The notes beneath the pieces are model-generated. The model worked only from the letters and a program-made list of their open reading frames with translations, had not been told where the DNA came from and searched no databases. Of a stretch of 64,000 nt of DNA, positions 59,795 to 62,393 are shown in pieces (within the stretch, counting starts at the first letter, position 1; every line of letters begins with the position of its first letter). Both the position numbers and the translations under genes were made by a program. Source of the DNA: Gloeomargarita lithophora Alchichica-D10 (GTDB lineage: Bacteria > Cyanobacteriota > Cyanobacteriia > Gloeomargaritales > Gloeomargaritaceae); the NCBI RefSeq assembly GCF_001870225.1, contig NZ_CP017675.1, positions 957,660 through 1,021,659 on the forward strand, written 5' to 3'.

Positions 59795-59825
59795 TTAATC
59801 CTCGGTATCATCCGGCTGGATGCCA

Positions 59826-60779
59826 TCAACGGCCAAAGCGGAACTTTTGGATCAAACTGCTCAGCCGTTGTCCTAAAGAAAGCTCCGGGGGGGTGGCCGC
59901 CACCTGCTCCGGGGGGGCACCCCGCATCCCGGTGACGATCTGCGCCCCCGCTTCGCCCACCTTGGCACCAAGAACCACCCGGTTGGCAATCTGGCTCAAA
60001 CCGGCAGGGGACACCACCAGGGTTTGGGGGAGGGTCGCCAAGCCCATTACCGTGGTCACCCCGTCCCCCAGGGGCATGGGCGGAGATTTGGGTGTGGGGG
60101 CAACCTGTACGGCCAAACCTGGATGTACCGCCAAGCCCAGTTGCAGGGGTTGGTAATGCAGTTGTTCTACCATCTGATTCACCCCCGCCATCGCCTGCAA
60201 TAGGTCTAAGGCCGCCCACACCGCCCGATCCACTGTCCGGTCATGGCGGGCAGGGTCAAAGGTGACCAGGGCGTGGGTGCCCATGGTACTGCTGATTTGG
60301 CCGCCGTAGGTGCTAATAATCTGATACAACTGTTGAAAATAACGCCCCATGATGTGCGCCATATCGTAGGGAAAATTCACCTGGTCAAAGGTTTCCATCC
60401 CTTTCAGCCCCGCATAAAGAAGCACCAATTCCTGTTCGGCGATGCCTTGCCCCCCCGTCAGTTGTTGATCCACCAAGTCTAAATCCTGGTTGTCCATCAC
60501 CAAACGACGAATGGTGACATCGCCACTGATTTTGGTCTGGCAGGCCAAACGCACATGGATGGGAAATTGTAATTTCTGCGCCAGGGCTTTTTCCGCCCGG
60601 GTGGGGGAACTACAATGCTTGATGCCATCCAAAATTAGCACCCGGCAGGTGGAGCAGTAGGCTTGGCCGCCACAGGCGTGGGTGTGGGGAATCTCATGGG
60701 ACAGCAGGGCATCCAAAAGGGTTTCCGAGGCATTGGTGGCAATCGTCTGCTGGTCCGGTTGCACAGAAAGCTGGGACAT
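59826..60779 (-). CDS. 2Fe-2S ferredoxin fused to a degenerate class III cyclase domain
   Basis: 317 aa. Residues 1-95 form an adrenodoxin-type ferredoxin domain with ligand Cys36, Cys42, Cys45 (HACGGQAYCSTCRV) and Cys80 (RLACQT). Residues 117-250 follow the adenylate/guanylate cyclase fold, as in ferredoxin-type adenylate cyclases (FPYDMAHIMGRYFQQLYQII). The two metal-binding Asp are lost: LFADIRG-type motif is LYAGLKG (Gly124), and GDG is GTH (Thr168). It is therefore probably catalytically dead and may sense redox or nucleotide. Not a normal electron-transfer ferredoxin. Convergent with tkt; divergent from the kinase at 60933. Confidence 0.8.
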   Translation of the reverse strand: MSQLSVQPDQQTIATNASETLLDALLSHEIPHTHACGGQAYCSTCRVLILDGIKHCSSPTRAEKALAQKLQFPIHVRLACQTKISGDVTIRRLVMDNQDLDLVDQQLTGGQGIAEQELVLLYAGLKGMETFDQVNFPYDMAHIMGRYFQQLYQIISTYGGQISSTMGTHALVTFDPARHDRTVDRAVWAALDLLQAMAGVNQMVEQLHYQPLQLGLAVHPGLAVQVAPTPKSPPMPLGDGVTTVMGLATLPQTLVVSPAGLSQIANRVVLGAKVGEAGAQIVTGMRGAPPEQVAATPPELSLGQRLSSLIQKFRFGR

Positions 60780-60932
60780 TAGTTATTCTCCTGGTGAGAT
60801 GAACCACTATTTCAAGGTACGCTAACCACTAGCAATTGGATGGGTGATCTGGCTACTGCCAAAATTTGTGAGGCTATCCCACGCAAATAGATGAATTTCA
60901 CCATAAACTGATAGTATTTCTGGCCGTTTGCC

Positions 60933-62393
60933 ATGACCGATACCACCCTTGCTGGCCGTTATCACATTCTTAAACCCCTGGGCAGTGGCGGGTTCGGGCA
61001 TACTTTTTTGGCCGAAGATTTATTTTTACCCGGCCATCCCCGCTGTGTGGTCAAACAACTCCAACCCCAGTCCACCAATTCCCAGGTGATGGAGGTGGCG
61101 CGGCGATTATTCAACCGGGAAGCGGAGGTGATGTATCAATTGGGTTCGACCGTCAGCCGCATTCCCCACCTGCTGGCGCACTTTGAACAGGATAAGGATT
61201 TTTATCTGGTGCAGGAATTTGTCGAAGGCCACGACCTCAGCCACGAACTCACCCCCGGCCAAAAATACCCGGAAGTCTGGGTGCAACAACTGTTGTTGGA
61301 TGTCTTGGAAGTTTTGGGTCAAGTGCATCAGCGCAGTATCGTGCATCGGGATATTAAACCCGCCAACCTCATGCGTCGCCAGTCCGACCAGCACATTGTC
61401 CTGATTGATTTTGGGGCGGTGAAGGAGGTGGGTTCCCTGGTGGCGGATGGGAAAGGGGAAACCGCTATTGGCACCCAAATTGGCACCCGCGGCTATATGC
61501 CCATTGAACAATTCCGGGGGCAGCCCCGCCTGAGTAGCGATGTGTATGCGGTGGGGGTGGTGGCGATTCAAGCCCTGACCGGTTTACCGCCCAGCCAGAT
61601 GGAAGACTACGACACCGGCGAATTGCACTGGCAACGGTATGCCCAGATTAGCCCTGGGTTGCAAACGGTGCTGGAAAAAATGGTACGTCCCGACTGGCGG
61701 CAACGCTATCCCAGTGCCGTGGAAGCCCTGCACGCCGTCCAAGAATTAACCACCGCTTCCGCCGCTAGTGTCACCCAACCGCTTAGCCCCATCCCCCCGA
61801 CCCCGGTGGCACCCACGGTGGCCATGACCCAGCCCAGCCGTCCGGTCGCCGTTTCACCAACGTCACCTTCGCCAGCGTCAACCCAACGCTCCCGGGGGTT
61901 ACCCTGTATTTTTTGGTTGTTTGGCGGGTTTGGCTTGGTGGGGTTAGCGTTTGTGGGGTTAATTGTCCTGGTGGCGGTCACCGATCAAACCCCCACCACC
62001 GAACCGACCCCCGACCCCAGCCCCACGTCCCAAAATAACCAACCCCCACGTCCCACGCCACCTGCCCCGGAACCCCAGAATAGCGGGGATTTATTCGGTG
62101 CCATTGCCTACAACAACGAAGATGGCTCCTACGGCTACGGCTTCAACTTCACCGACCGTGCCGGTGCCGAAGCCCGGGCGATCCAGGAATGTGCACGGGT
62201 GGCCCAGGGCAAAACCTGTGAAGTGTTGGTCTGGTTTCAAAACGCCTGTGGTGCCCTCGCCAAAGATGGGCGCAACAATGCGGGCAGTGGTTGGGGGGAC
62301 ACGCGAGCCTTGGCTCAGGAAAAAGCGGTGGCTTCCTGCCGCACGGTTGGGGGTGCGGACTGCGCCGTGGTGGAAACCGTCTGTAGCAAGTAA
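60933..62393 (+). CDS. Membrane Ser/Thr kinase with extracytoplasmic DUF4189 domain
   Basis: 486 aa. Kinase domain 8-270: LGSGGFGHTFLAEDL, Lys41 in CVVKQL, HRD Asp140, DFG Asp159. A Pro/Ser/Thr-rich juxtamembrane region follows, then a transmembrane helix at about 325-350 (CIFWLFGGFGLVGLAFVGLI), a second Pro/Thr linker, and a C-terminal DUF4189-type domain (387-486; FGAIAYNNEDGSYGYGFNF with six Cys, probably disulphide-linked). The layout suggests a receptor kinase sensing something outside the cytoplasm. Third member of the CVVKQL kinase group here. Confidence 0.9.
   Translation: MTDTTLAGRYHILKPLGSGGFGHTFLAEDLFLPGHPRCVVKQLQPQSTNSQVMEVARRLFNREAEVMYQLGSTVSRIPHLLAHFEQDKDFYLVQEFVEGHDLSHELTPGQKYPEVWVQQLLLDVLEVLGQVHQRSIVHRDIKPANLMRRQSDQHIVLIDFGAVKEVGSLVADGKGETAIGTQIGTRGYMPIEQFRGQPRLSSDVYAVGVVAIQALTGLPPSQMEDYDTGELHWQRYAQISPGLQTVLEKMVRPDWRQRYPSAVEALHAVQELTTASAASVTQPLSPIPPTPVAPTVAMTQPSRPVAVSPTSPSPASTQRSRGLPCIFWLFGGFGLVGLAFVGLIVLVAVTDQTPTTEPTPDPSPTSQNNQPPRPTPPAPEPQNSGDLFGAIAYNNEDGSYGYGFNFTDRAGAEARAIQECARVAQGKTCEVLVWFQNACGALAKDGRNNAGSGWGDTRALAQEKAVASCRTVGGADCAVVETVCSK

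Follow-up and report, generated by a model that had tools for sequence, protein, structure and literature searches.

A predicted membrane-associated ferredoxin on a degenerate class III cyclase scaffold in Gloeomargarita lithophora and other cyanobacteria

The window, a 64,000-nucleotide stretch of the Gloeomargarita lithophora Alchichica-D10 genome, encodes a protein that is most likely a membrane-associated ferredoxin carried on a pseudocyclase scaffold, acting either as a redox sensor/adaptor or as an electron relay. It belongs to an apparently single-origin family of dead cyclases that selection has maintained across many cyanobacteria. This pattern points to a redox function for which cyclic nucleotide synthesis is no longer needed. 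A preliminary description had read the protein as a redox sensor on a dead cyclase scaffold, possibly paired with the adjacent kinase; the dead scaffold holds, the sensor is plausible, and the kinase partnership is not supported. The features concerned are as follows.

59826..60779, minus strand: Fer2-pseudocyclase fusion protein of 317 aa (open reading frame with ATG start, homologues, tree)
60492..60776, minus strand: ISC/adrenodoxin-type [2Fe-2S] ferredoxin domain, residues 2-96 (Pfam Fer2, E. coli Fdx 1i7h, conservation)
59925..60443, minus strand: class III cyclase-fold domain, residues 113-285 (AlphaFold model, Cya2 match, motif register)
60384..60422, minus strand: degenerate metal-1 motif and start of a clade-specific segment, residues 120-132, LLYAGLKGMETFD (conservation, Cya2 alignment)
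60264..60293, minus strand: degenerate metal-2 motif, residues 163-172, SSTMGTHALV (motif reading, Cya2 alignment)
59829..59876, minus strand: C-terminal basic amphipathic helix, residues 302-317, candidate membrane anchor (predicted helix 302-315, hydrophobic moment)
60933..62393, plus strand: Ser/Thr kinase with DUF4189, a divergent neighbour outside the system (Pfam; kinase present in relatives that lack the Fer2 gene)

Ferredoxin and cyclase-fold domains of the window protein

Pfam recognizes Fer2 at residues 6-84 (E 1.2e-11), and the best solved relative of this part found by phmmer is E. coli Fdx 1i7h (E 4.5e-7), with 2mjd at E 7.5e-6. The ligands C36-x5-C42-x2-C45-x34-C80 have the ISC/adrenodoxin spacing; all four cysteines are present, as the preliminary description had said, and are invariant across the 54 family members, Cys56 being an additional invariant cysteine of the domain. 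Judged by its sequence the domain is an intact ISC-type [2Fe-2S] domain with a predicted bound cluster, the predicted model being poor around the cluster loop (pLDDT 42-49).

Pfam gave no match in the second half of the window protein, where Guanylate_cyc was not detected in this one protein. The assignment as a cyclase domain is made because 14 of the 15 degenerate-clade members scanned match PF00211 at E<=0.1, because phmmer aligns residues 116-224 with the solved Cya2 structure 2w01 (E 7e-9), and because the predicted fold superposes on Cya2 (Z 23.4, rmsd 2.1, 179 residues aligned). The AlphaFold model, of a single chain only, was built with 16 relatives and has a mean pLDDT of 78.5, mostly 80-97 in the cyclase domain.

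Aligned with Cya2 by phmmer, LLYAGLKG matches ILTSDLRG and TMGTHAL matches FMGDGIL, so that G124 and T168 face the metal-1 and metal-2 Asp, respectively. The motifs singled out earlier as degenerate, LYAGLKG and GTH, fall exactly on the metal sites. Misplacement of the ligands through misalignment was ruled out by the direct alignment with Cya2 and by 25 intact relatives. The purine-specifying residues are also absent (S164 at the Lys position, a gap at the Thr position), about ten residues have been lost internally in the former active-site region, and the transition-state Asn and Arg are replaced by T242 and G246, a loss that the preliminary description had overlooked. Two-metal catalysis by class III cyclases requires both Asp residues, so it is near certain that the window protein is enzymatically dead as a class III cyclase, its predicted loss of activity following from these replacements.

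The C-terminal helix of the window protein (SLGQRLSSLIQKFR) has a hydrophobic moment of 0.57 (shuffle p 0.028), and an amphipathic helix is kept at the end of most clade members, its moment of 0.6-0.87 in most relatives sampled being stronger than that of the window copy. This amphipathic end argues for membrane binding of the window protein. The GC3 of the gene, 0.68 against a mean of 0.65 for its neighbours, gives no sign of recent foreign origin.

Origin and selective maintenance of the dead clade

A search of 390 cyanobacterial genomes, in which scoring was confined to the top few candidates of each genome so that counts are lower bounds, recovered at least 53 full-length relatives outside the window, giving 54 Fer2-cyclase proteins with the window protein; a contig scan with the window protein alone as query gave no match. 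Both metal Asp residues are present in 25 of the 54 and neither in 29, with no mixed cases. The dead proteins are spread over eight families of genomes, their named matches including Pseudanabaena, Synechococcus-like, Oscillatoriales, and Leptolyngbyaceae records, and two genomes (G118, G339) carry one intact and one dead copy.

Outgroups in the tree were Fer2-cyclases from Rhizobium, Sinorhizobium, Tistrella, Hymenobacter, and an actinomycete bin, each with its two metal Asp residues in place. The 29 dead proteins form one clade with 100/100 support, nested among the intact cyanobacterial proteins, and the clade persists after removal of the metal and transition-state columns (SH-aLRT 97). 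Because the dead proteins are one clade, the simplest history is a single loss of both Asp residues in an ancestor that still carried them. The search for orthologues with the same substitutions, proposed in the preliminary description, accordingly returned the same Asp losses in all 29 members, the window protein included. The transition-state Asn and Arg are kept in 62% and 66% of the clade, respectively. With an end branch of 1.1, the window copy ranks with the most divergent sequences of the clade, and it has lost the clade-typical C6.

One dead-clade relative (L100:2988-4862) has a putative open frame of 624 aa, some 300 residues longer than its closest relative, and Synechocystis salina LEGE 00031 has an 88-aa Fer2-only relative of the clade (L140:8004-8270) with no cyclase domain after it. 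Identity of the latter with Synechocystis Fed6 (ssl2559) was considered, and the gene context described for Fed6, a Rieske/pobA cluster (PMC4284462), gave no support for it.

Among close Pseudanabaena relatives, pairwise dN of the dead domain is typically 0.02-0.06 against a dS of 0.3-1.1, dN of the Fer2 domain is similarly low, and the Synechococcus-like subgroup also has dN far below dS, at greater distance. Purifying selection therefore acts on both domains of the dead clade. The cyclase domain evolves at 0.94 times the rate of Fer2 in the intact group and at 1.5 times in the dead group, where mean identity is 62% for Fer2 and 43% for the dead domain; the latter is relaxed, not free of constraint. 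Chance decay in a single genome was ruled out by the 29-member clade and by the dN/dS of the relatives. The clade has its own conserved residues, including the segment FDExNFxYD (FDQVNFPYD in the window protein, with one substitution), Y209, L191, P73, and H75; in the dead domain D132, F136, and Y209 occur in 29 of 29 members and N135 in 83%. Such clade-specific conservation suggests that a new constraint, possibly a new surface, has replaced the active site. The likely single ancestral loss, the absence of both Asp residues from all 29 members and the purifying selection together give strong support to the earlier view of a dead cyclase scaffold.

Gene neighbourhood and possible roles

The gene lies between a transketolase gene and the divergent kinase, which has a hydrophobic, probably transmembrane segment in addition to DUF4189, and 18 matches in the genome at E<=1e-30. 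The Fer2 gene was not found in the seven other genomes of the family searched, although each of them encodes the kinase, at 75-86% identity in six and at 55% in one. In three of these relatives, the transketolase and kinase genes are tandem neighbours separated by about 60-70 bp, with glgA next, whereas the corresponding interval in the window (59795-60932) is about 1.1 kb; the window gene thus occupies the place where these two genes meet in the other genomes. Two other family relatives have the transketolase gene at another location. Among the genomes searched, only that of the window places the gene head to head with the kinase, and this kinase was not found near a homologue at any of 53 loci. 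The proposal that the kinase is the partner was therefore set aside, the absent synteny and the presence of the kinase in every searched family relative without the gene both telling against it; the signalling partner is probably another protein.

A conserved neighbourhood, which the preliminary description had proposed to look for, was likewise not recovered, no neighbour being common across families: shared neighbours are limited to a few in Synechococcus-like genomes and to a cluster specific to Pseudanabaena.

L070:3644-10592 and equivalents in L075-L080 and L085: operon-like Pseudanabaena cluster of SDR, GMC oxidoreductase, glyoxalase-like gene, 276-aa gene, Fer2-pseudocyclase, and second GMC oxidoreductase

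Of the eight Pseudanabaena loci, five have a GMC FAD oxidoreductase gene on the same strand 22-31 bp downstream of the pseudocyclase gene, and in five loci a 276-aa gene of no assigned function ends 1-4 bp upstream of the pseudocyclase gene; several loci also contain the second GMC enzyme, the SDR, and the glyoxalase-like gene on the same strand.

A redox sensor/adaptor, in which the [2Fe-2S] ferredoxin is mounted on the pseudocyclase, offers the best explanation, although a tentative one. The cyclase fold would still dimerize as class III domains do, and together with the C-terminal helix it would hold the ferredoxin at the membrane. A change in the oxidation state of the cluster may then shift the conformation of the pseudocyclase, with the output delivered by docking to a partner and not by synthesis of cAMP or cGMP. 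The redox-regulated CyaC of Sinorhizobium meliloti, itself an intact Fer2-cyclase, makes such a role plausible, and it is favoured because the protein descends from a redox-linked cyclase architecture and its scaffold is still under selection. It is opposed by the lack of a conserved partner gene and by the clearly better conservation of Fer2 than of the scaffold in the dead clade; the divergence of the window copy (end branch 1.1) and its lost C6 were counted on the same side, as was the assignment of the CyaC redox response to heme-B in PMC10463352. Extended to the whole clade, the proposal becomes still more tentative: a pseudocyclase signalling family, kept across several cyanobacterial families, in which the [2Fe-2S] cluster would drive a conformational, cyclic-nucleotide-independent output of a dead class III cyclase dimer that arose once from an active redox-linked cyclase.

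Electron transfer alone is also possible, at a somewhat lower probability again, with the ferredoxin exchanging electrons with an oxidoreductase and the dead domain being only a dimerization or docking module. This relay is nearly as good an explanation because of the GMC gene close downstream at the five Pseudanabaena loci described above, the higher mean identity of Fer2 (62% against 43%), and the intact Fer2-only version kept by S. salina. However, the GMC neighbourhood is restricted to Pseudanabaena and is missing in the window, and a mere docking module sits less easily with the purifying selection still acting on the dead domain.

It is unlikely that the protein is a regulatory subunit that pairs with a competent cyclase and makes the activity of that enzyme redox dependent. 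Mammalian C2 domains keep the transition-state Asn and Arg, as do many clade members (62% and 66%), and the window genome has four intact class III cyclases (L001-L004), one with a response-regulator receiver and three with FHA-like parts recognized by eye. The window protein, however, has lost the metal Asp residues as well as Asn and Arg, which leaves it with neither of the two half-sites that a composite active site needs, and no intact Fer2-cyclase was found in its genome. Slightly less probable still is a decaying, functionless relic in the window genome, which would fit one of the longest branches, the loss of about ten residues around the former active site and the missing gene in seven other family genomes, but not the open frame, full cysteine set, C-terminal helix, and neighbour-like GC3 (0.68 against 0.65).

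Catalytically dead kinases are familiar components of signalling, and the clade is a bacterial group of dead class III cyclases that selection has kept while fused to a ferredoxin. Its intact sisters, which in two genomes accompany a dead copy, allow a direct test of whether a cyclase fold can pass on a redox signal without catalysis. Fer2-cyclase fusions whose active sites are intact are already known; such fusions are usually annotated as adenylate/guanylate cyclases, which would mislabel about half of the cyanobacterial ones sampled; the dead clade was not found described in the literature searched on pseudocyclases and Fer2-fused cyclases in cyanobacteria.

Comparison with known systems

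The metal-less halves of heterodimeric cyclases, mammalian AC C2 and sGC alpha, are class III domains without metal Asp that have been kept by selection, as in the window protein; they retain residues for a shared active site, whereas the window protein keeps none among those tested. The Cya2 guanylyl cyclase of Synechocystis (2w01) has the same fold (Z 23.4 over 179 residues), but it has the metal Asp residues lost from the window protein, and its solved construct is without Fer2. The E. coli ISC Fdx (1i7h) and the adrenodoxin-like Fed5 of Synechocystis (PMC4284462) share the ISC/adrenodoxin-type [2Fe-2S] domain, but both are small stand-alone carriers, unlike the fusion described here.

The same two-domain layout is seen in the 25 intact cyanobacterial Fer2-cyclases, proteins of about 350 aa with a basic hydrophobic C-terminal end which, unlike the window protein, have intact FADxRGF and MGDG motifs and invariant Asn and Arg. 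In this group (L086, L094, L095, L101-L122) the purine-specifying Lys is replaced by N, V, or I, and its substrate preference is therefore uncertain.

CyaC of S. meliloti (Wissig et al., 2019, cited in PMC10463352) consists of a 6TM diheme-B domain, Fer2, and a class III adenylate cyclase. Its activity responds to the quinone redox state, a sensitivity that PMC10463352 assigns to the heme-B groups rather than the iron-sulfur domain. Both metal Asp residues and the purine Lys are present in CyaC (CDLRDF, DKFIGDG), whereas the window protein has none of them. The N-terminal heme membrane domain and demonstrated cyclase activity of CyaC would likewise have no counterpart in the window protein. 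In both proteins Fer2 lies directly N-terminal to the class III cyclase domain, and membrane association, predicted for the window protein, would be a further common trait.
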